NCBI GenBank assembly: GCA_947302895.1
Contig: CAMYWU010000014.1
Location: 1 to 14,933 of the forward strand
Direction: 5' to 3'
DNA: 14,933 nt
DNA from: an uncultured Clostridia bacterium
GTDB taxonomy: Bacteria; Bacillota; Clostridia; Oscillospirales; Acutalibacteraceae
Positions 1,273 through 14,933 of this stretch are shown here, one piece after another (the stretch's first letter is position 1; each line of letters begins with the position of its first letter). The notes beneath the pieces were generated by a model. It did no database searches, was not told where the DNA came from, and was given only the letters and a program-made list of their open reading frames with translations. Position numbers and translations under genes: made by a program.

Positions 1273-4200
1273 TTATGATACCGTTATCGGCATTGTTAAT
1301 GTGTTTTCTACTCCGTCGGTCCAGGTTACCGTCATCTTGTACCTGCCCTTGGGAACGTTTGCAAAACCTATCTTATTAAGTGATACGTTTTCAAGAGTGT
1401 AAACTCCTTCGCCGCCCATTCCAACAAGGGAAACATTAACGTTGCCCCCGAACGAGCCGAGCACTACATTGCTGTCGAGCGTGTAATACGGAGTGTAGCC
1501 TATGGCAAAGGTTGAGAAGCTTGTTGAATAGATATAAACAAAACCGTTTTTCTTATCAATTCTGAAGGTGCCGTCTTCCCCGCTGTCGCTCTCTTTGAGC
1601 TTTTTAACCTTTGAGCCGTCGCAGTAGTATGCTGCAAGGTCTTTCCTGTTAATTTTCTCATAGGGAACGGCAATTTCAAGAACATTTCTTGAATTCTTCA
1701 AAACGGTTATTTTTGAATCAACGGTTTTTTCGAGCTGAACGTCAAAGAACATAAACGTTGTGTTTACGCTGAGGTCTGTGAAGGCTTTTGAATTATTAGC
1801 CGTTTCAACTGTTTTAGCTTCAACCGTCATCTTAAGAGAAAGGTTTTGCTCGTCTTTAAGACCGTCTGCGATTCTTATTGCTTTTGCCTCTTCGTTAAGA
1901 CCGCCGACAACAACATCAAAGCCCTCTGTATCTGAATTGATGTCAACCACTGACTCCGTGTTTCCGCCGAGCATTGAAATATCCTGCTTCTTGGTTTTGA
2001 ATAGCTCAACTGCGGTTGTTTCGCTCTTGCCGTTATATGTTGTAACAATGTTATAAAAACCTGCGGGAACAATGAACTGATATTTGCCGTCGGTTGCTGT
2101 TATTTCATAATCAACCTTATTGCTGCCCTTCATAAGAGTTATTGTTGCGTCCTCAATCGGAGTTTTGCCGTCCTTCTGATAGAGAACACCGCTGAGGGTT
2201 ACCCAATCCTCTTCTGCAATAACAACCTTAATGCACTGAGGTGCAATGTCGAAATGGTTTTTATCCGCAGCAACTCTGTACCAGACATAGTAGCTGCCCG
2301 TTTTCTTGGCAGTCGGGATTGAGGTTTTGAAACTGCTTTCATCGGGAGCGCTCTTCGGATTTTCGCCGATAGCATAGAAAAGCGTTCCTCCGTCAACCTT
2401 GCCCGCCTTAACAAGCTTAAGCTTTGAGCCGTTATATATCGGGTTTGCTGTTGCAGGTGCAGTTGTTATAACTGCGTCAACAGTATTTACCGTAACATAT
2501 CCGTCTGTAACCTCAAAGGTAACCGTTGCAAAGTTTGAATTTGTGTTTGCAAACTGCTCAGGTGCAAGTCCCATATTTGTTGTTCCTGCATTTGTTCTTG
2601 AAGCAGTTGCATCACCCGAGAAGGTGAAATCCTTTGAAACATCATAAAGGCTTGTGTTTGCATTTGCAACGTAGCCTGTTATTGTGTGCTCAGTTCCGTC
2701 ATAATCAACCGTGCTGTTGTTTCCGACAATCGTAACCGTTGCATTGATTTTGTTAATCTTAACAGTTTCAACGCCGATAACGGTGATATAGTTCTTTCTG
2801 CTTACCTCATAGTAAACGTTATATTCACCTGCGTTTGTGTATGTCGGGTTCGTGGTCGAATTAATGCTTTCAATGCTTGTTCCGTATTTAACGGTTGCAC
2901 CCTCGGGTTTGGTTACTGTGATGCTGTGAGCATTTCCGTCGTAATTAACTGTGCAGCCCGCTGCCGAAACCTCGTCATTCATTGACTTTTCGTCAATTGT
3001 GAATTCTGCAGAAGCTGTAGCCTCGCCAAGCGTTATGCTTGCGGTGTAGGTGCCCGCGTCGGTGTTGCCCGAATACTGAATTGTCGGAACGGAAAGTCCG
3101 TTATCCGTGGTCCAGTCATCGCTCTTTTTCAGCGTAGCCGTTACTGCGCTGCCGTCGTAGGTCTTGCCCTGGGCGCTGATTTGGATAGTTTGCTTCTCCA
3201 ACGGGCAAACGCCTGATTCATAACCGGAGCAGGTGGCGGTAATGGTGTCACCGTCAGCCGCATAGCTCCAGCTGTGCGTATGCGGAGGACCGATGCAAAC
3301 CTCGCCGTTTCTCATAGCCTGCACTTCATATCCTACCGCGTCAGCGGTGAAGTAGTCGCCGGGCTTTTTGCCGTTCATATAGGTCGGCCATCCGCTGGTA
3401 ACCACTGCTGTGGTGTTGGAGGATTTAATGCCGACAGAAGCCGTGCTGTCAAGCTCGCCGATTATTGTTACAACAGCGCCTGCGGCAACATTTACATTGT
3501 TTGCCGCGTTGCTTGTTGTTTTGTTATCGGTGATTTGCGGATTGCCGGAAAGTTTCATTGTTGCTGCTCTTGAAACATGAATTCCGCCTCCGTTTTTAGC
3601 GGTGATATTATTGACGATAGAACCGCCGCAGACATCAACAACGCAAGTGTTGCCTTCGGGCATATAGATTGCGCCGCCCCATGCGCCGGCTTTGTTGTGG
3701 TGGATGGAACCGCCGCTGATATAAAGTTCGGAAGGTCTGCCGCAGAAGACTGCGCCTCCGCCTCCGCCTGTATAGTTATAGGCAATGCTGCCGCTGTTAA
3801 TGTGAACCGTGCTGTTTGCATTCGTGCAGATAGCTCCGCCGTTTCCGCCGGTGTTGCCGATGATGTTACCGCCGTTAATGTTGAGCGTGCCGCTAACAAC
3901 AAATGCGCCGCCGCTGCCGGTTGTGTTACCGCCGGTGATGTAACCGCCATTTACGGCAACCGTTCCGTTTGATTCATCAAGTGTTGCAAGCGAATTGCTG
4001 TTTACAGTGAAGTTATGCGTTGTCTCTGTATGTGAGTCAATCAGATTCATCGTTGCGTCGCTGCCAACATCAAATACTCTTGCGTTGCCTGTCATTTTGA
4101 TACCGTGACCGCCCAGGTCAAGCGTATGCTCGCCCGACGGAACATTGATTGTGCTTGAGGTTGTTACATCTTTCAGCAGCTTGAGCGTGCTGTCGTCTGC

Positions 4201-5919
4201 CCAGGCATTTACGGCGTCTTCAAATGAAGTATAGATTTCTTCATCATCGCCCTTAACAACGCTTGCAACGAAATTGCCGATTGCCGCTTCGCCTTTCACT
4301 AAAGCAACGATATAATCGCTGTTATCGCTCGTTAAATAGTTTGCAGGGCTCTTGCCGCTCATATGGGTATCCCAGCCACTTGTGAACACGCCCGTGCCGT
4401 TGTTCATCTTTATGCCGATTTTTGCGTCATTGTTAAGTGTACCTACAGCGATTGTATAGCCGTTTCCAAGCTCAATGTTGCTTACGCCCTTGCTTGTCAG
4501 GTTGTTTTCAATAACGGTGCTGCCCGAAACCTCTGTTCCCGTGGTTGTCATCCAGATTCCCGCTCCGGGACCGTTTTCAGCGTAGTTGCCGCTGATTTCA
4601 CAATCTTTCAAAATTACCGGGATTGTTCCTCCGACATGAATACCTCCGCCGTCTGCGCTAACGACATTATTTATGATTTTACCACCAAGGATTTCGCAGC
4701 CGGCGCCTTGCAGACGAGTTGCACCACCGCATTGTCCGGCATTATTCTGAATTGAACCGCCGTACATTTTGAATGTACCTGATTCTATTGTAGAGAATCC
4801 TCCGCCGTGCGTAGTGCCATACTGACCGTTTCCGATAACAGTACCGCCGTACATTTCTACAGCGCCACTGATATAAAATGCACCGCCCCTACTCCAGTTG
4901 TTTACGCGTGTTCCTTTACCACCTGTGATATAGCCGCCTGTAAAGGTTTCGTATCCGCTTGTCAGAGAATCGTTAACCGTTGCAAATCCTGCGCCGTTGG
5001 ATTTTTTGTTGGAAACAGAAAATCTGTGTTCGGTTTCAGTATCGCAATCATAAATTTTAAGCGTTGCCCCCGTGCTTACGGTCATAACGCTGCTGTTGCC
5101 AGTCATCTTGATTCCGTGACCGTTAAGGCAAAGGTTAGTTGTGCCGCTCGGAACATTCCATGTGCTTGAAATAGTAACATCCTTATCAAGGAAATAGTTA
5201 CCTGCCGAGCTTGGCAGTGAGTTGGTGCTGTCCCATTTTGTGAAGGTGATATCGTCGTGGTCGGAGTGGCTTACCGGTGCGGGTCCGCCGAATGCAATAT
5301 CAGCCAATGTGCAGGTTGCAGTCGGATTGGAAAACGGTACGTCGTGGCCGCTTCTTCCTGCGCCTGCAAGCGCGGTGATTGTGAACTGATAATATTGATA
5401 AGCCGTTGTGTTATTAAACGAATAAACATTTTGCTTATAACCCTCGGAAGCATCAATCGTTTCGTTAGCAACCAAAACGGTGCTGCAGGAATCAGCGCTG
5501 TTACCCGCCTTCAAATTCCATCCCGCAGGATTACGGTGCGCATAATTCGCTTTAAAGGTATCTGCACCCGCAACTATTTTGAAATGGTCAATAACAACGG
5601 GCTGGCTCATATGAACAGTTACCATAATTTCTTTGCCGTTGCCGCTCAGATTCTGATAGTTTACCTCAGGGTCAGCAGTGGAAACATAAAATATGGTGCC
5701 GGTGTTATTATCAACCAAACAATCAAAACCTCTGTTGGATTTGCCGTCGGTGTACATTTTGTCTTCACCGAAAAGGATGTGCTTGTCGATAGTAACATCG
5801 TTTTTTGTATACCACATTTCCGGCTCTGTGTCTGCCATTACATATATGGGTGCTGTATTAACAAGCATCAGCAATGCCATAAAGCAGGCAATAGCAGCCT
5901 TTATTTTAACCTTTTTCAT
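1273..5919 (-). CDS. Giant secreted beta-helix / MBG-repeat protein
   Basis: This 1548-residue exported protein has a Sec signal peptide (MKKVKIKAAIACFMALLMLV, likely cleavage after VMA, residue 29). Regions in order: a discoidin/F5-8C-like beta domain at about 38-213; a right-handed beta-helix at about 240-550 with repeated GG-(A/G)-(I/F) and NN turns (GGSIQNN, GGKIINN); a second homologous helix at about 560-878; and a linker with HTHSW and paired cysteines at about 880-905. Then come MBG/Ig-like repeats at about 908-1235 with the YDG hallmark (KTYDGSA, NYDGNAH, DYDGTEH), a carboxypeptidase-regulatory-like (SpaA/CnaB-like) fold at about 1239-1310, and an unassigned C-terminal region. No LPXTG motif, SLH repeat, dockerin or C-terminal membrane helix is seen, so the mode of cell attachment is unknown. 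The start has AAAGGAG 7 bases upstream. The role is probably binding glycans or host/neighbour surfaces (inference); a catalytic polysaccharide-lyase role for the helices cannot be excluded. Confidence 0.9.
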   Translation of the reverse strand: MKKVKIKAAIACFMALLMLVNTAPIYVMADTEPEMWYTKNDVTIDKHILFGEDKMYTDGKSNRGFDCLVDNNTGTIFYVSTADPEVNYQNLSGNGKEIMVTVHMSQPVVIDHFKIVAGADTFKANYAHRNPAGWNLKAGNSADSCSTVLVANETIDASEGYKQNVYSFNNTTAYQYYQFTITALAGAGRSGHDVPFSNPTATCTLADIAFGGPAPVSHSDHDDITFTKWDSTNSLPSSAGNYFLDKDVTISSTWNVPSGTTNLCLNGHGIKMTGNSSVMTVSTGATLKIYDCDTETEHRFSVSNKKSNGAGFATVNDSLTSGYETFTGGYITGGKGTRVNNWSRGGAFYISGAVEMYGGTVIGNGQYGTTHGGGFSTIESGTFKMYGGSIQNNAGQCGGATRLQGAGCEILGGKIINNVVSADGGGIHVGGTIPVILKDCEISGNYAENGPGAGIWMTTTGTEVSGSTVIENNLTSKGVSNIELGNGYTIAVGTLNNDAKIGIKMNNGTGVFTSGWDTHMSGKSPANYLTSDNSDYIVALVKGEAAIGNFVASVVKGDDEEIYTSFEDAVNAWADDSTLKLLKDVTTSSTINVPSGEHTLDLGGHGIKMTGNARVFDVGSDATMNLIDSHTETTHNFTVNSNSLATLDESNGTVAVNGGYITGGNTTGSGGAFVVSGTLNINGGNIIGNTGGNGGAICTNANSTVHINSGSIAYNYTGGGGGAVFCGRPSELYISGGSIHHNKAGAWGGAIYMPEGNTCVVDVCGGSIVNNITAKNGGGIHVSRAATMKLSGNPQITDNKTTSNAANNVNVAAGAVVTIIGELDSTASVGIKSSNTTAVVTSGWPTYMNGKKPGDYFTADAVGYEVQAMRNGEVCIGPPHTHSWSYAADGDTITATCSGYESGVCPLEKQTIQISAQGKTYDGSAVTATLKKSDDWTTDNGLSVPTIQYSGNTDAGTYTASITLGEATASAEFTIDEKSMNDEVSAAGCTVNYDGNAHSITVTKPEGATVKYGTSIESINSTTNPTYTNAGEYNVYYEVSRKNYITVIGVETVKINKINATVTIVGNNSTVDYDGTEHTITGYVANANTSLYDVSKDFTFSGDATASRTNAGTTNMGLAPEQFANTNSNFATVTFEVTDGYVTVNTVDAVITTAPATANPIYNGSKLKLVKAGKVDGGTLFYAIGENPKSAPDESSFKTSIPTAKKTGSYYVWYRVAADKNHFDIAPQCIKVVIAEEDWVTLSGVLYQKDGKTPIEDATITLMKGSNKVDYEITATDGKYQFIVPAGFYNIVTTYNGKSETTAVELFKTKKQDISMLGGNTESVVDINSDTEGFDVVVGGLNEEAKAIRIADGLKDEQNLSLKMTVEAKTVETANNSKAFTDLSVNTTFMFFDVQLEKTVDSKITVLKNSRNVLEIAVPYEKINRKDLAAYYCDGSKVKKLKESDSGEDGTFRIDKKNGFVYIYSTSFSTFAIGYTPYYTLDSNVVLGSFGGNVNVSLVGMGGEGVYTLENVSLNKIGFANVPKGRYKMTVTWTDGVENTLTMPITVS
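3289..4227 (-). repeat. Beta-helix unit, copy 2 of internal duplication
   Basis: This segment encodes residues about 565-877 of the giant secreted protein. Its landmarks match copy 1 in order: KDVTTSSTINVPSG, GHGIKMTGN, GGYITGG, GGAI/NN coils, then TSGWPTYMNGKKPGDY and a final VCIG. It is a divergent tandem duplicate of copy 1, separated by a short linker of about 15 residues. Confidence 0.75.
4270..5202 (-). repeat. Beta-helix unit, copy 1 of internal duplication
   Basis: This segment encodes residues about 240-550 of the giant secreted protein. It opens with a strand-rich cap (KDVTISSTWNVPSG, then GHGIKMTGN), continues through a TGGYITGG turn and several GG-x-I-x-NN coils, and closes with TSGWDTHMSGKSPANY and an AAIG end. 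The same order of landmarks recurs in copy 2. The repeat is seen at protein level; the DNA copies have diverged. Confidence 0.75.
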
Positions 5920-6978: not shown

Positions 6979-7776
6979 TTATTCAATATTTTCCGTGAGT
7001 TTTGCTTCCGAAAAAGCCGCCCAGGGATATGAATTCATATACTGACCACGATAGGAATTAATCGCCTGAGAATCGCCCTCAAAGAAGCGAAACATATCGC
7101 AGTCTATTTTTTCGGGAACAATTCTGTATAATCCCCTCCGGCGCTCAACAATATCCGAAACGCCGTATTTATCAAGCGTATCAAGCATTGAATTAATTAG
7201 GATTGAAAGATATTTCTGTTTTGACCTATCGTATATTTCATCCTCAAACAGGGCTGCAAAAATCGCCTTTGTTGTTACGCTGCCGCCCTGGTTATCAATA
7301 AGAAAAGCAAGAATTTCCTTTGCTTTCAGGCGTGGAAAAACAACCGCTTCCCCGTCAACAAATAAATCAAATTCGCCAAAGGTACGGGCAACAATATGCG
7401 CCGAAAAAACCTGCTGCGGCTTTTGCGACATTGCATAATTGACTTCCTCTTCAAGCTCATTCCTATCAATTGGCTTTAAAAGATAGCCCGAGGCGTGGAG
7501 CTTGAAGGCATCCGCCGCATACTGCGAATAGCCTGTTAAAAAGATAATCGATGTATCGGGGGAAATCTCCTTTATTCTCGCCGCAAGCGTTAAGCCGTTC
7601 ATATCGGGCATATCAATATCAAGCAGGGCAATATCAAAAGCCTGAGAAGCTGCGCCCTCAATTGCGGCACTCGCTCTGCCGTATGAAAAAACCTGAGGCT
7701 TTTGCTTTAGCTCCCTGCAAAGATGAACGGTATGATTTAAAACAACCGCTTCATCGTCCACACACATTATTTTCAT
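6979..7776 (-). CDS. Two-component response regulator, REC plus SARP/OmpR-type winged helix
   Basis: This 265-residue cytoplasmic transcription regulator is predicted to be phosphorylated by the kinase encoded just upstream. The receiver domain (1-118) has the acidic pair D7/D8, phospho-acceptor D53 in LLDIDMPDMNG, T81 and K101 in LLKPID. Residues about 130-220 form a winged-helix DNA-binding domain beginning FGEFDLFVDG with RLKAKEILAFLI, as in SARP-like regulators (COG3947 type). Residues 221-265 (DCDMFRFF..., YRGQYMNSYPWA) look like the start of a bacterial transcriptional activation domain (BTAD) that is cut short; family members with full BTAD are about 360-380 residues. The start codon overlaps the kinase stop by ATGA, implying translational coupling. 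A strong terminator follows. The target genes are unknown; the 11-bp repeat just downstream is a candidate site. Confidence 0.92.
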   Translation of the reverse strand: MKIMCVDDEAVVLNHTVHLCRELKQKPQVFSYGRASAAIEGAASQAFDIALLDIDMPDMNGLTLAARIKEISPDTSIIFLTGYSQYAADAFKLHASGYLLKPIDRNELEEEVNYAMSQKPQQVFSAHIVARTFGEFDLFVDGEAVVFPRLKAKEILAFLIDNQGGSVTTKAIFAALFEDEIYDRSKQKYLSILINSMLDTLDKYGVSDIVERRRGLYRIVPEKIDCDMFRFFEGDSQAINSYRGQYMNSYPWAAFSEAKLTENIE

Positions 7777-9032
7777 ATATTCTCTCCTGCTCCGTCAGGA
7801 ATAAACAAGCTGACTGAGGTTCCTTTTCCTATAGCGCTTTGAACCTCCATCCATCCGCCGCACATAGTTTCAATTCTCTCTTTAACATTTGTTAAGCCGA
7901 TATGCGTTCCCGTTTTTTTAATTGCTTCAACATCAAAACCAACACCGTTATCCTCAACCTTTATTATAACTCCGCCGTCCGTTTTATCGGCAAAAACCTT
8001 TACAATTCCCTGCTCACGGTTGCGAACGCCGTGGCGAATTGCATTTTCAACAAGGGGCTGAACGCTAAGCGCAGGAAGCTTAAAATTATCGTATTCAATA
8101 TCATAATTAACGCTGATATTCGGAAAGCGCACCTGCTCGATATCCGAATAAACCTTTGTATGCTGCAATTCCTTATCAAAGGGGATAAGCTCGGGCTGTT
8201 CAAGCGAATCGAGATTCTGTCGCAGATATTTGCCGAATTTTCCCGTTATTTCGGAAGCCTCTTCGGGATTTGTTAAGCAAAGCGCCTGAATTGTTGAAAG
8301 CGTGTTATATAAGAAATGGGGCTGAATCTGCGACATCATTATTTTAATACGCTGTTCCGCCATCAGGTCTTTTCTGTGTTTTTCTTCATATTCAACGTGC
8401 AGCCATATGAAATAATACAGCGAACAGCTGACAATCGCAAGTGTTATATATGAAACAGGGTAATTAAAATACAGCGGAGATATATCAAGAGCAGTTGCAG
8501 CAACTAGTATTCCGATAATAAACAGCGCCGCCCACCACAGTTTTTTCTTAAAGCGGTGTTCAAGAATCGTGCAATAAACAAGATATGCTATAAGAATTGC
8601 ACTTATAATAAATGCTGTGTATCCAAGTACACCTCGTTTAAATACGTGGTTTTGGTCATAATAAAATACAAGATGACTGCCTGCAATTGAATCCACTATA
8701 TGAATCGCCGCATTGATACCGACAAGAATTGACGCCAAAATATGCTTTTTGTTGATTGCAACAAAATAACAGAAAAGCAAAATAATAATCGGGCGTATAC
8801 TGTAGCCGACGCCGCCGCTAATATACCTCATTTCATTATAAACACCCTTGGTTGAAAGGGTATAATCAACAACATTCTGTGCAACAAGAATTGTGTCGCA
8901 CAAAATAATTTCGATCATTATTATTTTCTGCTTCTTTGACGAATGCTTGTCATTGAACATAAAAAACACAATTCCAAGCAGCTGAAGCAATATAGGAAGC
9001 AGAATAATATATTCTCTGACAATTTCTCTCAT
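7773..9032 (-). CDS. LytS/YehU-type sensor histidine kinase with seven predicted membrane helices
   Basis: This 419-residue membrane sensor kinase has hydrophobic segments at about 8-26, 38-55, 78-94, 97-116, 134-154, 166-184 and 192-212 with short loops and no large extracytoplasmic domain. A charged linker leads into a His_kinase (PF06580-type) segment with H239 in SQIQPHFLYNTL. An HATPase_c domain follows, with the N box (PLVENAIRHG, N330), G1 (DNGVGF, 361-366) and a glycine-rich lid (GTHIGLTNVKER). The signal is presumably sensed in or near the membrane and is unknown. The ATG at 9032 is preferred over an in-frame TTG at 9050 because GAGGA lies 7 bases before the ATG and nothing suitable precedes the TTG. 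The gene starts 80 bases after the GH3 gene and overlaps the regulator gene by four bases. Confidence 0.92.
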   Translation of the reverse strand: MREIVREYIILLPILLQLLGIVFFMFNDKHSSKKQKIIMIEIILCDTILVAQNVVDYTLSTKGVYNEMRYISGGVGYSIRPIIILLFCYFVAINKKHILASILVGINAAIHIVDSIAGSHLVFYYDQNHVFKRGVLGYTAFIISAILIAYLVYCTILEHRFKKKLWWAALFIIGILVAATALDISPLYFNYPVSYITLAIVSCSLYYFIWLHVEYEEKHRKDLMAEQRIKIMMSQIQPHFLYNTLSTIQALCLTNPEEASEITGKFGKYLRQNLDSLEQPELIPFDKELQHTKVYSDIEQVRFPNISVNYDIEYDNFKLPALSVQPLVENAIRHGVRNREQGIVKVFADKTDGGVIIKVEDNGVGFDVEAIKKTGTHIGLTNVKERIETMCGGWMEVQSAIGKGTSVSLFIPDGAGENI

Positions 9033-9039
9033 AACACAT

Positions 9040-9044
9040 TCCTC
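9040..9044 (-). promoter_or_regulatory. Ribosome binding site that fixes the kinase start
   Basis: GAGGA on the minus strand lies 7 bases upstream of the ATG at 9032. It falls inside the reading frame that would be translated if the upstream TTG at 9050 were used, and so argues for the shorter, 419-residue kinase. Confidence 0.7.
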
Positions 9045-9089
9045 ATTCAATCACATTTTTCTGCAACTGAAATATATTTTCGATTTGAA

Positions 9090-9112: not shown

Positions 9113-11557
9113 TCACAGTTTAATATCCATTGCCATTTTAAGAACATTCATAGCGCAGCGCTGCATTTCGCCGAGGGTTATTCCGTATGGCTTGCCAAGG
9201 GAGGCAAGCAAGGTTCCGTCGGACTTTCGTGTGTAGTTGGTTTCTCCGGGCGGCATATACGGTGCGCCGGGCATAAAGAGGTCAACCTGCGCACGAACAC
9301 GGTATGCCTGGTCACGAAGAATCGGAAATTCGGGACTCTTTGATTTTTGAATCCACCAATCCGTCATAACGTTGCCCTCATATCCCCATTCGTTTCTGAG
9401 AATCGTTGTGAACAAATCATAGTTATAATGCCCCCATACGCCGTTTATCTTATTATATGAGGTCATAATATTCATCGGCTTTGCTTCCTTTATACAAATT
9501 TCAAAGCCCTTGAGATATATCTCTCTGAGAGCTCTTTCCGAAAGCCTTGAATCGTTTTTTGTTCTTTTGAATTCCTGATTGTTGCACGCAAAATGCTTAG
9601 GGCAGGCTGAAAGTCCGCCGCTCTGAATTCCCTTAACATATGCCGCAGCCATCTTTCCGCTTACATACGGGTCTTCGCTGAAATATTCAAAGTTTCTTCC
9701 GCAAAGCGGATTTCTGTGGATATTAAGTCCGGGAGCAAGAAGAATATCCGAGCCCCTGTTTTCCATCTCCTTTGCAAGCTCTGTGCAAAGCGCTTCAACA
9801 AGCTCCGTATTAAAGGTGCAAGCAAGAAGGGTTGCGCACGGAATTAAAGAGCAGTTGCTTTTGAGCTTAATTCCCGAAGGACCGTCGGTTGTTGTTATAA
9901 CGGGAACGCCCTTTTCTCTCAGGGATTCAAGAACGCCTGCGCAAATGCCCGTATTGCCCGGTGCGCCAAGCGGATTATCGGTTATATAATCGCCCCTTGT
10001 TATGGCTTCAAGCTCATCAAGACTTAGCTGAGCAACAAATTCCTGCATTGTAATTCTGCCCTCTTTAACATCAACAAGCTTATAGCCGACATCACCGACA
10101 GGCTCAATATCCTCGGGCATATTATTAAGTATTCTTGTTGCCATATCATATTTCTGCTTGGCAACAGCTTTTTTCTTTAAAACGGGCTTTCCGTCAACAA
10201 GCTCTGCATGGTAAACCTCAAAATGCTCCTGCGGAGCAGAAGCCTGCTTATGCTGGGAATAAACAAAGTCCTCTTCCTGATAGAAATTGAATACCTCTTC
10301 GTTATTCCTTGAATCCTTTCCAAGATGGAATTTATAATCTCCTTTTTCAACAACATAGCAGCCTGCATGGTTGGTTGAACCGCAATCGTCATATGAGCAA
10401 AGCTGATAGAAATCAACAAAAAGCTCAAGCTCCTGAGCCTCGCCTGCTGCAAGCTCCTTTGTTTTTGCAAATGCCGCAAGCTCCCTTGCAGGATTGCCGA
10501 GTCTGCCCATGGGCTTTTCGAGATAGAGCTGAACAACCTCTTTACCCGAATGATTGCCGATATTTGTAACCTTCACCTTAAACTCAAAGCCGTTATCAAC
10601 AGCCTTTGCCTTAACGCATTCCATTTTGAAATCGGTATAACCAAGACCGAAGCCGAAGGGATAAAGAACGCTGTTTTTATCAAAGCTTTCAAAATATCTG
10701 TAGCCTACAAAAATATCCTCTTCATAGTTATTGAAGGCTTTTGAGCCGTAGTTTTCAGAGGAGGGATAGTCAAAATAGCTTCTTGCAATGGTATCGGTCA
10801 TTCTGCCGCACGGCGAAACCTTACCGCAAAGCAAATCACAAATTGCGTTGCCGCTTTCCATTCCGCCCTGCCAAACGCAGAGAATAGCGCTGATTTTATC
10901 GCCGAAGCTTTCAACCCACGCCATATCCATAATAATTCCGATATTGAGCAAAACAACAACGTTTTCAAAATGCTCGGTTATGAGACCGAGGTTTTCAAGC
11001 TCGCTGTCGGTAAGATAGTAGCTGCCCTTATTCAGCTCGCAATCCCTGTCTTCACCCGAGCCCCTGCCTATAACAAAAACGGCAACGTCGCTCTTTTTGC
11101 CTGCGTTTTTAACAAGCTCAGCATCAAGAGGCATATCCTCGTGGTAAAAAGGCCAGGTTCCCCAGGCATGCTCTTTTTCAAGCGGGTTTTCCCTGCAAAA
11201 AATATCGTATTCAAAAGCAAGCTCTTCATTAACGGTAAAATCGCCGCACTTTCTTGCAGCGGCAAGAAGGCTTGCTTTCCGGTTACAGCTAACGTCTCCG
11301 CCCGAGCCGTAGCCAACATAGAACCAATCCTTCTGAAGTCTTGAAAAGAAAGAAACACGGCTTCCCTTTTTCAGCGGAAGCACGCCGTTATTTTTCAGAA
11401 GCACAGCGCCCTCGGCAGCCGCCTGTCTTGAAAGCGCAACTATTTTTTCATCAAGTTTTTCATCGGAAATATTGTTCTTATTCTGCTTCTGAGCAAGCAA
11501 TCCCGCTGAAGTTACCACCCTGTTGATTCCCCCTTTAATTCTATCTTTTACGCTCAT
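9113..11557 (-). CDS. Glycoside hydrolase family 3 enzyme with swapped domain order
   Basis: This 814-residue enzyme is probably an intracellular beta-glucosidase or related exo-acting glycosidase; no signal peptide is seen. The order of parts is reversed relative to ordinary GH3. The alpha/beta sandwich normally found C-terminally comes first (about 40-265: EGAVLLKNNGVLPL, VFVIGRGSGEDRD, CVWQGGMESGNAICDLL), then the FnIII-like domain (about 320-415: VKVTNIGNHSGKEVVQLYL). The TIM-barrel comes last (about 500-814: TTDGPSGIKL, FSEDPYVSGKMAAAYVKGIQ, CPKHFACNNQE). D733 in GNVMTDWW is the predicted nucleophile; E169 in GSGEDRD is a candidate acid/base (less sure). This order is known from Ruminococcus albus and Butyrivibrio fibrisolvens beta-glucosidases. 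It has a strong promoter and an AAGGG ribosome site, and it precedes the two-component genes. The substrate linkage is not determinable from sequence alone. Confidence 0.93.
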   Translation of the reverse strand: MSVKDRIKGGINRVVTSAGLLAQKQNKNNISDEKLDEKIVALSRQAAAEGAVLLKNNGVLPLKKGSRVSFFSRLQKDWFYVGYGSGGDVSCNRKASLLAAARKCGDFTVNEELAFEYDIFCRENPLEKEHAWGTWPFYHEDMPLDAELVKNAGKKSDVAVFVIGRGSGEDRDCELNKGSYYLTDSELENLGLITEHFENVVVLLNIGIIMDMAWVESFGDKISAILCVWQGGMESGNAICDLLCGKVSPCGRMTDTIARSYFDYPSSENYGSKAFNNYEEDIFVGYRYFESFDKNSVLYPFGFGLGYTDFKMECVKAKAVDNGFEFKVKVTNIGNHSGKEVVQLYLEKPMGRLGNPARELAAFAKTKELAAGEAQELELFVDFYQLCSYDDCGSTNHAGCYVVEKGDYKFHLGKDSRNNEEVFNFYQEEDFVYSQHKQASAPQEHFEVYHAELVDGKPVLKKKAVAKQKYDMATRILNNMPEDIEPVGDVGYKLVDVKEGRITMQEFVAQLSLDELEAITRGDYITDNPLGAPGNTGICAGVLESLREKGVPVITTTDGPSGIKLKSNCSLIPCATLLACTFNTELVEALCTELAKEMENRGSDILLAPGLNIHRNPLCGRNFEYFSEDPYVSGKMAAAYVKGIQSGGLSACPKHFACNNQEFKRTKNDSRLSERALREIYLKGFEICIKEAKPMNIMTSYNKINGVWGHYNYDLFTTILRNEWGYEGNVMTDWWIQKSKSPEFPILRDQAYRVRAQVDLFMPGAPYMPPGETNYTRKSDGTLLASLGKPYGITLGEMQRCAMNVLKMAMDIKL

Positions 11558-11596
11558 AAAAAAGCCCTTCCCTTCTTATACGCATTTATGAAAATT

Positions 11597-11625
11597 ATTA
11601 TATCATTGATAAACTCTTTGTGCAA
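11597..11625 (-). promoter_or_regulatory. Extended -10 sigma-A promoter of the GH3 gene
   Basis: On the minus strand TTGCAC (11625-11620) is followed after exactly 17 bases by TATAAT (11602-11597), a perfect -10 preceded by TGA, which makes an extended -10 (TGnTATAAT). The expected transcript start is near 11590, leaving a leader of about 33 bases before the start codon. This is the clearest promoter in the window. Confidence 0.75.
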
Positions 11626-11635
11626 TATCTTTATT

Positions 11636-11668
11636 AAGACATATTTCGCATTAAACATTCGATATTAT
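11636..11668 (+). promoter_or_regulatory. Possible Spo0A-type promoter of spoIIE with 21-bp spacer
   Basis: AAGACA (11636-11641) and TATTAT (11663-11668) are separated by 21 bases. Long spacers of 21-22 bp are known for the Spo0A-activated spoIIE and spoIIG promoters of Bacillus subtilis. TTCGATA (11658-11664) overlapping the -10 matches the reverse 0A box (TTCGnCA) at all but one fixed position. Each element is weak and the region is AT-rich, so this is a suggestion. Confidence 0.3.
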
Positions 11669-11699
11669 ATGAAGGAAATTTAAAAAAGCGGATGATAAA

Positions 11700-13811
11700 A
11701 TGGAAGTTAAAGAAAGAATAATAGCGAAAAAGGGATTATTTGAAAATAAAAAAGCAAAACCTTTTTTAGAGGGCTTCGTATTTTTAATGCTTGGCTTTCT
11801 GATGAGCACGGGAAGAGTTGTTAATAATATCCAACCCTTCGGCATATCACTTGTTGCAGTTTCAAAGAATAAGAACATCTTTTTTTCATTTGTCGGCGCC
11901 GTTCTCGGCTATCTTACAAGCGGTGTTGACGCAAGCTTTGCAAGGTATTTTGCAGGTTTGGTTATTGCGCTGATTGGTGCCATTGCTTCAAGCGCCTTTG
12001 AGCTTGGCGAACGCCCTGCATTTCCCTCAACCGCCGCATTTTTGGCGAATTTTGCAAGCGGTTTTGTTATGAATTTCAAGCTGCAAAGCATATACACGGC
12101 ATACATAATAACCTTCGGCGAAGCGCTTCTTTGCTGCGGCGGCGCATTTTTCTTCTTCAAAAGCATAAACTGCGCCTATAAAAGAATAAGACCCAATGCG
12201 CTCCCCTTTTATGATATCTGCTGTCTGATGATTTCGTTTTCAGTAATGCTGATGAACCTTTCTTATTTCTATGTTTACAGCATATGCCCTGCAAGAGCGC
12301 TTGTAATTGCCGCACTTTTAATTCTTCAAAGGATGAACAATCCCAAGCTTTGTTTAATTTTTGCAATAAGCAGCGGATTTTCCTTTTCAATTGCCCAGAA
12401 GGGCAATATGTTCATCCTCGGCGCACTTGCCTTTTCCTGTCTTGTTGCCTGGATTTTCTTTGATTATTCGGCTCTTGCATCGGGGATTGCGTTTCTTTGC
12501 TGTATCGGCTTTTTCAGCATTTCTTCAGGCAGTTCGGTTGCGCTTTCGCTCTTTATTGAAGCGGCTATCGGCGTTGTTATATTCCTCCTTGCGCCGTCAA
12601 GGCTCAACAGAAGGCTTGAAAGCCTTGGAGAAAACGCCGTTCCCTCCGACAGCTCACTTCGCCAGAGCCTTGTTTTAAAGCTGCGCTTTGCCTCCTCCGC
12701 TATGGCTGCGATAAGCGAAAGTGTTGAACAGGTTCGTGAAAAAATAGACGAAATAACCCGAAACGAAAACGAGATAAACAAGCTGAATATGAGCCGTGAG
12801 GAATACATAAACAAGGAGATAATCCTTGAAAAAACCAATCAGATTAGAATGGTTGCCTCCGACCAGTTTTTTTCAATTGCCGATATGCTTGAGGAGCTTG
12901 CCTTTGAATACGACGAAGCCGAAACCTTTGATTCAGCCGCCTGTGAAAAAATACGGGCGCTCCTCGGAGAATACGGAATTTATCCAAAAAATGTTTCGGT
13001 TATTGAGGACAAGTTCTCAAGAATGCGAGTTGAAATTCTCAGCAATACCCCTTCTGAAAAGCTTGAAAATCCAGCCTTTCAGGAAGAAATAGGAAAAATC
13101 TGCTCCCGCTATTTTGAACGGGGCAGAATAACGAGCTTCAAGGATGAAAATATGCTCTCCTTTTTTGAGCGCCCCTCATACAGACTTAATATTGGCTTTG
13201 CTCAGCACAGTGCGGAAGGAACGCTTTGCGGCGACACGGTTAAGATTATAAACGACTATAAAGGACACTGCATTTTAATTATCAGCGACGGTATGGGGAA
13301 GGGCTCACGAGCGGCGCTTGACGGAGCGATGGGAGCAGGACTCCTTGCAAAGCTCATAAACGCAGGCTTTGGTTTCAACAGCGCACTGAAAATAATCAAC
13401 TGCGCCCTGCTTGTTAAAAGCAATGATGAAAGTCTTGCAACGCTTGATATTGCAAGCATTGATTTATTCACGGGCAAATGTGAATTTTATAAGGCGGGCG
13501 CTCCTGCAAGCTACATTATAAAAAACCGTGGAGTTATTAAATGCGAACTTTCTTCAATGCCCGCAGGCATTTTGCGAGGGGTTGAATTTGCCAAAAAAAG
13601 CGCAGTTTTAAGCCCGGGAGACTGCCTTGCGCTTATGAGCGACGGCGTTGGAGATTTGGGCGAGGAATGGCTTGAGGGCGTTCTTTTATCGAATAACGAT
13701 TTAACCTCAAAACAAAAATCACAGCGAATTATTGAAGAAGCAATTGAAAAATCAGAGAGTAATAAAATGGACGATATGAGTATAATCTATGCCAAACTTG
13801 AAAGGAACTGA
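11700..13811 (+). CDS. spoIIE: Stage II sporulation protein E, PP2C-type phosphatase
   Basis: This 703-residue membrane protein dephosphorylates the anti-anti-sigma factor SpoIIAA to activate sigma-F in the forespore, and it links this to polar septation. Residues about 24-298 contain many hydrophobic segments (about ten helices expected). A charged, helical central region (about 300-480) includes a probable coiled coil (SVEQVREKIDEITRNENEIN). The PP2C domain spans about 490-700, with GDT (511-513), ISDGMGKG (528-535), TLDIASIDLFTG, MSDGVGD (646-652) and DDMSIIYAKL near the end. D530, D648 and D692 are candidate metal ligands. The protein is shorter than B. subtilis SpoIIE (827 residues), mainly in the N-terminal and central parts. 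The ribosome site before the ATG at 11700 is modest (GGATGA). The gene is transcribed divergently from the GH3 gene and is closely followed by a GlmS-like frame. Confidence 0.95.
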   Translation: MEVKERIIAKKGLFENKKAKPFLEGFVFLMLGFLMSTGRVVNNIQPFGISLVAVSKNKNIFFSFVGAVLGYLTSGVDASFARYFAGLVIALIGAIASSAFELGERPAFPSTAAFLANFASGFVMNFKLQSIYTAYIITFGEALLCCGGAFFFFKSINCAYKRIRPNALPFYDICCLMISFSVMLMNLSYFYVYSICPARALVIAALLILQRMNNPKLCLIFAISSGFSFSIAQKGNMFILGALAFSCLVAWIFFDYSALASGIAFLCCIGFFSISSGSSVALSLFIEAAIGVVIFLLAPSRLNRRLESLGENAVPSDSSLRQSLVLKLRFASSAMAAISESVEQVREKIDEITRNENEINKLNMSREEYINKEIILEKTNQIRMVASDQFFSIADMLEELAFEYDEAETFDSAACEKIRALLGEYGIYPKNVSVIEDKFSRMRVEILSNTPSEKLENPAFQEEIGKICSRYFERGRITSFKDENMLSFFERPSYRLNIGFAQHSAEGTLCGDTVKIINDYKGHCILIISDGMGKGSRAALDGAMGAGLLAKLINAGFGFNSALKIINCALLVKSNDESLATLDIASIDLFTGKCEFYKAGAPASYIIKNRGVIKCELSSMPAGILRGVEFAKKSAVLSPGDCLALMSDGVGDLGEEWLEGVLLSNNDLTSKQKSQRIIEEAIEKSESNKMDDMSIIYAKLERN

Positions 13812-13815
13812 GAAG

Positions 13816-14933
13816 ATGAGCAGAATATTTGCAAGCATTCAGATAAACGGAAAAAAAGACATTCTTTTACCAACAAAAAACGAGAAATTCAGCCTTGCTT
13901 CAAACGGCGATATCGAGAATATCAAAGCGCTCAGAAAGCTTTGCGATTTCTCTGAAGCCTATGAAAACGAGGAGGAGCTGCTGCTTAGCTGTCTTGGCGC
14001 TATGAGCGAAAAAAACAGGCTTGAATTGCTCTTTAAGCTTACGGACAGCGCTATAGGTAATTTATCCTTCGTTTTCACTCCGAGCGATGAAAATGCGCTG
14101 TACTGCAAGGGCGGAATTTCAAAGCTCTTTATCGGAGTTTGCAAAAGCGGAGCATATGTTTCAAACGAGCTTGAAGCTATATTCCCCCTGTGCGATAAAT
14201 ACACCGTTCTTGAAAACAACCAAACCGCAAAGATAGGAAAGGATAAAATTCTTTTCTTCGACTCCCGTCATAAAAGAATAAAAAAGACCTTTACGCCCAT
14301 AACGGAAAAGCGCCCGCAAAGCAATAATTTTCAGATTGCAGACAACACCTTTATCTGCTCTCTTTCTGCAAAGGAAACCTTTTTCAGATTTGTTAAAAGC
14401 GGCAAACTTTCCTTTGATTATATGAAGCTTAAAGGCGGATTTCTGAACAAAATAAACAAAGTAATACTTGTTGGAAGCGCCTCGGCAAAAAACACCGCAA
14501 CAATATGCAGAAAGCTCTTTGAAACCTATTGCCTTATCGATACATTTGCCCTTGAAAGCGAGGAGCTCATAACCTTGAAAACTCCGCTTGATAAATGCAC
14601 TCTTGTTATTGCGATTTCAAATAATTCTGAGGATAACAGACTGCTTGAAGCGATTTCAAAGGCAAAGGAAAGCGGAGCTAAAACACTTGCCCTTACCGAT
14701 AATAAACATTCCGCCCTCGCGCTTGAATGCGATTATTTAATAAATCCGAAAAGGAATTATCAAAGCGCTTCTTTGGCTGCTGAATTTATCTCAAACTATT
14801 TTGCTCTCAGCCTTTTTGCGCTCTGGATGGGCTATAAAACAAGGGTTATTTCGGAGCTTTTTATCGGCGTTTCACTTAAAATGGCTGAGATGCTTTCGGG
14901 AATAATTCAGGCATCAACAAAAGCCTCACCGAT
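13816..14933 (+). CDS. Degenerate GlmS-like SIS-domain protein, 3' end outside window
   Basis: A continuous frame of 372 residues starts at the ATG at 13816, four bases after the spoIIE stop, and is still open at the window end. It is probably co-transcribed with spoIIE. Residues about 28-150 resemble the rear half of the GlmS glutaminase domain: NGDIENIKALRKL matches the family's HNGIIEN pattern, and ALYCKGGISKLFIGV and AYVSNELEAIF match its R-x-GSPL-x-IG and ASD-x-x-A patterns. The front part with the catalytic Cys and the RWATHG loop is missing. The start MSRIFASI resembles MCGIxGYI with Ser in place of Cys. Residues about 213-340 form a first SIS domain (VILVGSASAKNTA, LVIAISNNSEDNRLLEAI, ALTDN, YQSASLAAEF), where GlmS has CGTS, SQSGET and GVASTK. 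Loss of these residues suggests it is not a working GlmS. The second SIS domain would lie beyond the window. The assignment rests on motif recognition only. Confidence 0.75.
   Translation, partial: MSRIFASIQINGKKDILLPTKNEKFSLASNGDIENIKALRKLCDFSEAYENEEELLLSCLGAMSEKNRLELLFKLTDSAIGNLSFVFTPSDENALYCKGGISKLFIGVCKSGAYVSNELEAIFPLCDKYTVLENNQTAKIGKDKILFFDSRHKRIKKTFTPITEKRPQSNNFQIADNTFICSLSAKETFFRFVKSGKLSFDYMKLKGGFLNKINKVILVGSASAKNTATICRKLFETYCLIDTFALESEELITLKTPLDKCTLVIAISNNSEDNRLLEAISKAKESGAKTLALTDNKHSALALECDYLINPKRNYQSASLAAEFISNYFALSLFALWMGYKTRVISELFIGVSLKMAEMLSGIIQASTKASP

Follow-up and report, generated by a model that had tools for sequence, protein, structure and literature searches.

A predicted GlmS-derived pseudoenzyme encoded directly behind spoIIE in one genus of gut Clostridia

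Introduction

SpoIIE has several known partners, FtsZ, DivIVA and SpoIIAA, and to our knowledge none of these is a SIS protein. Here we describe a gene that sits directly behind spoIIE, where a cofactor of SpoIIE could be co-made, and whose product is related to GlmS. A first-pass annotation of this locus had stated that no SpoIIE partner of such a kind was known to it, and had named tilS, hpt and ftsH as more typical neighbors. Searches of one library of open papers likewise yielded none, nor any earlier description of a GlmS-like pseudoenzyme tied to spoIIE.

The gene shares with GlmS (TIGR01135) both its ancestor and its domain order. The least changed dead copy tested (L189), a dead copy being a spoIIE-linked relative in which catalytic residues are missing, reaches up to 266 bits against that model, and the solved relatives 3ooj, 2j6h and 4amv match protein P0007 at about 1e-28. 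In contrast to GlmS, the dead copies score below 418 bits, Cys1, H504 and K603 are each absent from all 48 dead copies aligned, and the glutaminase half has been shortened in the window and is missing from copies that consist of the SIS half only. These SIS-only copies have the body plan of the stand-alone double-SIS enzymes NagB-II, GlmD and FrlB, whose profiles they match weakly; unlike those enzymes, they match far under the curated cut-offs, show no common catalytic set and are encoded behind spoIIE. RssB (PMC5468089) is a pseudoenzyme that has similarly lost catalysis and retained a regulated fold. It differs in its fold and its pathway, and in the present case extant relatives still display the transition from enzyme to dead copy.

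Results

A GlmS relative directly follows spoIIE

The window, that is, the whole stretch of 14,933 nucleotides analyzed here, is the entire contig of a fragmented 1.6 Mb genome that is 82% complete. Its spoIIE gene (11700..13811, plus strand) has 703 codons and encodes a membrane part and a PP2C-type phosphatase. The product matches PF07228 (4.3e-24) and PF19732 (7.2e-11) in Pfam and the solved SpoIIE of B. subtilis, 5ucg (3.9e-25), which bears out the identity first assigned to it, yet its 253.7 bits against TIGR02865 remain under the NCBIfam equivalog cut-off of 490.8. A frame starting four bases 3' of spoIIE had also been reported, and this frame is real: the spoIIE TGA occupies 13809-13811 and the ATG begins at 13816. 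The sequence AAAGGA (13801..13806, plus strand), a putative ribosome-binding-like stretch, lies within the last spoIIE codons, nine bases before this ATG.

The linked gene (13816..14931, plus strand), a dead relative of GlmS, is open for 372 codons and is ended by the contig edge without a stop, because the window is the whole contig. A full-length relative, P0001, is 99% identical to the protein encoded in the window and has 528 codons, 519 of them counted from the ATG that matches 13816; the whole window protein should thus have about 519 residues. An assembly or frame artefact was ruled out, as the open frame recurs across many independent assemblies. G020 is exceptional among the linked loci in that both spoIIE and the linked gene are fragmentary. 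A separate, complete GlmS (603 residues, 691 bits) is encoded on another contig of the window's genome. Elsewhere in the window, the minus strand carries a gene for a surface-like protein of 1548 residues (1276-5919) with no Pfam match at 0.001, and a response regulator (PF00072) and a histidine kinase (PF06580, PF02518) whose genes overlap by a few bases (6982-9050).

The profile search proposed with the first-pass annotation places the relationship to GlmS and SIS proteins beyond chance. The window fragment matches the NCBIfam glmS model (TIGR01135) in GlmS domain order at 1.7e-17 and 63 bits, with residues 22-343 aligned to model positions 91-422, and P0001 scores 74 bits, both below the cut-off of 418. 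The first SIS domain (14443..14766, plus strand; residues 210-317) matches PF01380 at 4.3e-10, and its scores of 39.9 bits in the window and 47.9 bits in P0001 both exceed the gathering threshold of 25. The glutaminase-half remnant (13816..14340, plus strand, approximate bounds), delimited by the NCBIfam glmS match and the alignment, consists of the first strand, a gap of about 65-70 residues and the rear part, so that its earlier description as the rear half of a glutaminase domain was correct.

The catalytic losses listed in that annotation held for most positions. In the alignment Ser replaces Cys1, and K403, K485, E488, H504 and the C-terminal, Lys-bearing tail are lost, as are R26 and the R73-W74-T76-H77 stretch. 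The SQSGET loop of the first SIS domain, however, had been described as lost and still retains its first Ser and its Glu (SNNSED), and Asn98-Gly99 is also kept (SNGDIEN against HNGIIEN).

The linkage is conserved within one genus

The genus, which we take to be Eubacterium_R, comprises 80 genomes with Eubacterium coprostanoligenes included; by named records its members include E. coprostanoligenes ATCC 51222 and many assemblies from ruminant, rabbit and pig gut. PMC13079761 treats relatives of E. coprostanoligenes within Acutalibacteraceae. The end of spoIIE was found in 75 genomes, and since the contig of G221 stops 174 bases later, 74 were readable. In 67 of these, the gene after spoIIE is a relative of GlmS: 17 copies are intact, 23 (that of the window among them) are dead, whether full-length or shortened, and 27 retain the double-SIS half only. 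The remaining seven genomes (G018, G028, G208, G215, G217, G228 and G229) have no linked gene and no detected vestige of one, and the gene is therefore dispensable.

A survey of the neighborhood of spoIIE across relatives had been suggested at the outset, and it revealed a linkage that is conserved in the genus and, as sampled, confined to it. No GlmS-like stretch was found at any of 17 loci outside the genus (6.5-7.8 kb each; nine from the same family and eight from the same order), nor was adjacency seen by eye among the order-wide matches listed, and we reject the linkage as a general trait of Clostridia. The nearest spoIIE/GlmS pairs among those listed matches are about 25 kb apart (G128, G157). 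A profile of the clade II proteins, one of the three groups defined below, finds at least 84 protein clusters above a wide score gap (E 7.6e-106, then 1.4e-33) among the matches listed; where these are named, it is as 'SIS domain-containing protein' or 'hypothetical protein'. One record titled Bacteroides sp. (L232, JAMPEQ010000008.1) carries a spoIIE of the genus and a SIS-only gene, and is probably a mislabelled assembly.

A tree of SpoIIE divides the genus into three groups, here called clades. Clade I holds the 17 genomes with an intact linked GlmS plus G217, in which the linked gene is absent. Clade II holds 22 SIS-only copies and six genomes without the linked gene. Clade III holds the 23 dead full-length or cut copies, a nested group of five SIS-only copies and G221, which ends at the contig edge. 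As SIS-only copies occur both in clade II and nested within clade III of the SpoIIE tree, there were two or more separate losses of the glutaminase half.

The dead copies share a pattern of lost residues

The catalytic table covers 48 of the 50 dead copies, the short ones of G020 and G225 being excluded. Besides the three residues that all of them lack, E488 is retained in only six and is absent from the window. The same three residues are complete in unlinked GlmS proteins (38/38 each), and in the intact linked copies Cys1 is found in 17/17 and both H504 and K603 in 16/17, the 17th being truncated by unread bases. Common replacements recur in clade III (C1S in 17, H77R in 16, N98D in 18 and K485R in 19, each of 22), a pattern indicating that residue losses in this clade are not random. 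No NCBIfam model reaches its own cut-off in the dead copies tested. Taken at the level of sequence, these comparisons identify the linked protein as a GlmS-derived pseudoenzyme in which catalysis is predicted to be lost.

Dead copies descend from an intact linked GlmS

In GlmS trees, built by a quick method and with long branches among the dead copies, these copies group with the intact linked type (B), and a support of 100 separates the two from the other GlmS of the genus, type A, and from the outgroup. An origin of the dead copies from the cell's other GlmS, type A, was rejected (AU test, p 0.000109). Measured against a single reference sequence per type, the conserved residues of the dead copies favor B over A by 23:3 in clade II, where a further 17 fit neither type, and by 12:5 in clade III, where a further 10 fit neither. 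The trees and residues concur in showing that the dead copies derive from an intact GlmS linked to spoIIE.

Of the 50 genomes that carry a dead copy, 46 encode a further GlmS, and of the 17 whose linked copy is intact, none does (Fisher p 1.8e-12, relatedness ignored). For several genomes this count rests on a fragment at a contig edge, and sequence and tree confirmed only part of these additional genes as type A. Four of the 50 have no other GlmS that we could find, and one of these four genomes is 97% complete. A glmS ribozyme precedes 11 of 21 scanned unlinked type A genes, for example at L075:3702-3850 (minus strand) and L183:1830-1986 (plus strand), and none of the 17 intact linked genes.

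The linked gene of three clade I genomes, G032, G220 and G194 (L122, L124 and L125), is of type A and nests among the type A genes of clade III, which suggests replacement in place by transfer. Genome G217, which is 98% complete in about three contigs, has no GlmS match at all (L118, G217:C2:217000-225300). The gene facing spoIIE there resembles a hexosaminidase, judged by eye, and may be an amino-sugar scavenger.

The dead gene is constrained as a protein

Eight pairs of dead copies, which share genomes (G210, G232 and G233 account for three pairs), had a linked dS below 1.3, out of 69 genome pairs with a spoIIE dS below 1.6. By a simple Nei-Gojobori count, dN/dS was 0.090-0.137 in seven of these eight pairs; the eighth, with the fragmentary G020, gave 0.32. 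In the same seven pairs SpoIIE had values of 0.022-0.079, the linked gene being two to six times higher, and unlinked GlmS gave 0.032 and 0.038 in two of the seven. The dead gene therefore evolves faster than its neighbors, yet these ratios indicate that it is clearly constrained as a protein.

The values bear on the possibility that the gene is a relic on its way out, in slow decay. The linked protein does shrink through a series of 605, about 587, 519 and about 350 residues, the gene is gone from seven of the 74 genomes, and it changes faster than SpoIIE and GlmS, all of which would be expected of a relic. The relaxed selection expected of a pseudogene is, however, not seen in those seven pairs; the frames stay open over wide divergence, replacements are shared, and a SIS-only clade II representative (L238) has a confidently predicted fold, with a mean pLDDT of 91.5 and a pTM of 0.90, residues 1-15 being unordered. 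That fold represents clade II and not the window's own family (A2). We regard mere decay as quite improbable.

The close spacing to spoIIE also admits that the gene matters only within the spoIIE mRNA, say by stabilizing the transcript or ending it, and that its protein has no role. Selection acts on the protein sequence, though, and seven genomes hold spoIIE without the linked gene, which makes this highly improbable.

The phosphate loop is mostly gone in one clade

A catalytically dead protein of this kind had been proposed to bind sugar phosphates and so to sense amino-sugar or cell-wall precursor status, or else to modulate SpoIIE. The sensor proposal is weakened in clade II, where the phosphate loop is mostly lost (T352 and Q348 in 0/21, S347 in 7/21, S349 in 6/21), and fares better in clade III, which mostly keeps S347 (20/22) and E351 (18/22), although S349 is kept in only 2/22; an Arg in its place in 11/22 could still hold phosphate. 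A sensor would thus be conceivable mainly for clade III.

More broadly, the SIS half could be a changed ligand-binder, either a sugar-phosphate sensor or an enzyme, isomerase or deglycase, with a different substrate, given that active enzymes are found among double-SIS proteins that have no glutaminase half and that the NagB-II and GlmD models match weakly. Against an enzyme or ligand-binder stand the loop losses of clade II, the absence of H504 and K603 from all 48 dead copies aligned, the rarity of E488 and, in the dead copies tested, the lack of any NCBIfam model over its cut-off. We consider a changed ligand-binder unlikely, although it deserves to be kept in view.

Position and rate of the linked gene relative to spoIIE

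The median gap from the spoIIE stop to the linked start, measured by a mechanical first-ATG rule, is 5 bases in clade III (n=23), 2 bases for SIS-only copies (n=27) and 30 bases for intact copies (n=17), the difference between dead and intact copies having p 2.4e-7 with relatedness ignored. Dead copies would usually be near enough to spoIIE for translational coupling. The largest other cluster of shared neighbors occurs at 19 of 64 loci in mixed positions; a GH3 enzyme is common upstream in clade III loci.

Branch rates were compared in several correlations, uncorrected for their number. When the other GlmS and SpoIVA are controlled for, the rate of the linked gene follows that of SpoIIE in clade III (r 0.44, p 0.016) and in clade II (r 0.55, p 0.0015), the rank correlation in clade II not being significant (rho 0.31, p 0.09). 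With SpoIVA the clade III rates correlate no less strongly than with SpoIIE (r 0.54, p 0.003), so that sporulation as a whole may be what the linked gene is tied to.

GlmS acts as a pair of subunits, in which a His of one completes the active site of the other. The dead protein might accordingly pair as a subunit with the other GlmS, present in nearly all genomes with a dead copy, and tune it in sporulation. The gene adjoins spoIIE and not the other glmS, however, and after control its clade III rate does not follow that of the other GlmS (r -0.14, p 0.47), while in clade II it does so only weakly (r 0.33, p 0.07). We judge such a pairing to be improbable.

Expression and sporulation context

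The position of the gene had been taken to imply expression with spoIIE at the start of sporulation, and this was not supported. Of 72 loci, one has an exact Spo0A box (TGTCGAA) within 200 bases upstream of spoIIE, where shuffled sequences give 1.5, and in 17 genomes the linked position holds the sole GlmS, presumably needed in growth. Allowing one mismatch to this one consensus gave 31 against 28 in shuffles over the same 72 loci and 200 bases. Control of the spoIIE locus by Spo0A was thus rejected, as no 0A box signal rises over the shuffles, and so was a promoter in the gap (5 sigma-70-like sites against 4.7 by chance across 11400-14000). In clade I the linked GlmS, lying 17-116 bases behind spoIIE (e.g. 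L060, L067), is the sole GlmS and presumably has to be made in growth, so that either the pair would be expressed then or the gene would have a promoter inside spoIIE.

A spoIVA match exceeds its cut-off in 65 of the 80 genus genomes, and none was found in the window's own incomplete genome. sigF-type matches occur in all 80, none over the cut-off and with other sigma factors among them. PMC13079761 terms cholesterol-reducing Eubacterium strains non-spore-forming. Despite that label in the same source, E. coprostanoligenes ATCC 51222 (L206, G005) carries spoIIE, spoIVA over the cut-off and a sigF-type match. In C. difficile, according to PMC3789822, glmS is among the genes of late sporulation regulons, a case unrelated to the link with spoIIE.

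A displaced GlmS as a possible partner of SpoIIE

We favor, at about even odds (roughly 0.5), the explanation that a displaced GlmS, whose descent the trees establish, is kept as a non-catalytic partner that would be made with SpoIIE. The ancestor of the genus, or that of its three clades, had an ordinary GlmS directly behind spoIIE, as homology and the tree show. In the two clades with another GlmS elsewhere, often under ribozyme control, the linked copy lost its chemistry, and its glutaminase half was cut back or discarded, on two or more occasions. The dead protein is kept as an intact frame under purifying selection, almost always right after spoIIE. We hypothesize that its double-SIS part acts without catalysis as a scaffold or regulator, produced in step with SpoIIE, and that it most likely binds SpoIIE itself or some other protein located with it at the membrane.

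Several results count against a partner of SpoIIE: the losses in 7 of 74 genomes, a dN/dS higher than that of SpoIIE, the covariation with SpoIVA, the 4 of 50 genomes without another GlmS, the lack of a 0A signal and the description of relatives as non-spore-forming.

The more specific proposal, that a housekeeping enzyme encoded behind spoIIE was freed where another GlmS was present and turned, within one genus, into a dedicated subunit of the SpoIIE machinery with no catalysis of its own, is tentative, and we consider it less likely than not. Under it, living relatives would display the steps in turn: an intact enzyme, a dead full-length protein, a truncated one, and a SIS body with a putative membrane-seeking tail. 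If the dead protein works with SpoIIE, it would be a new component, in common gut bacteria, at the switch that starts forespore-specific gene expression. The series from essential enzyme to pseudoenzyme is unusually complete, and its probable cause, another GlmS in the genome, is also in view; the origin of a pseudoenzyme is therefore testable here by comparison of sister species.

Recurrent protein ends

Both ends of the linked protein show recurrent features. In clade II the N-terminal tail is basic (e.g. L238:9071-10120), with at least four Lys or Arg among the first 20 residues in all 21 proteins examined. This tail could bind the membrane, and in the partner model it could keep the double-SIS protein there. 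In clade III, all 25 uncut linked proteins end in Ala, Ser, Val or Gly, often as QSA, AAS or KAV, despite wide divergence, and this end is possibly a degradation or docking tail.
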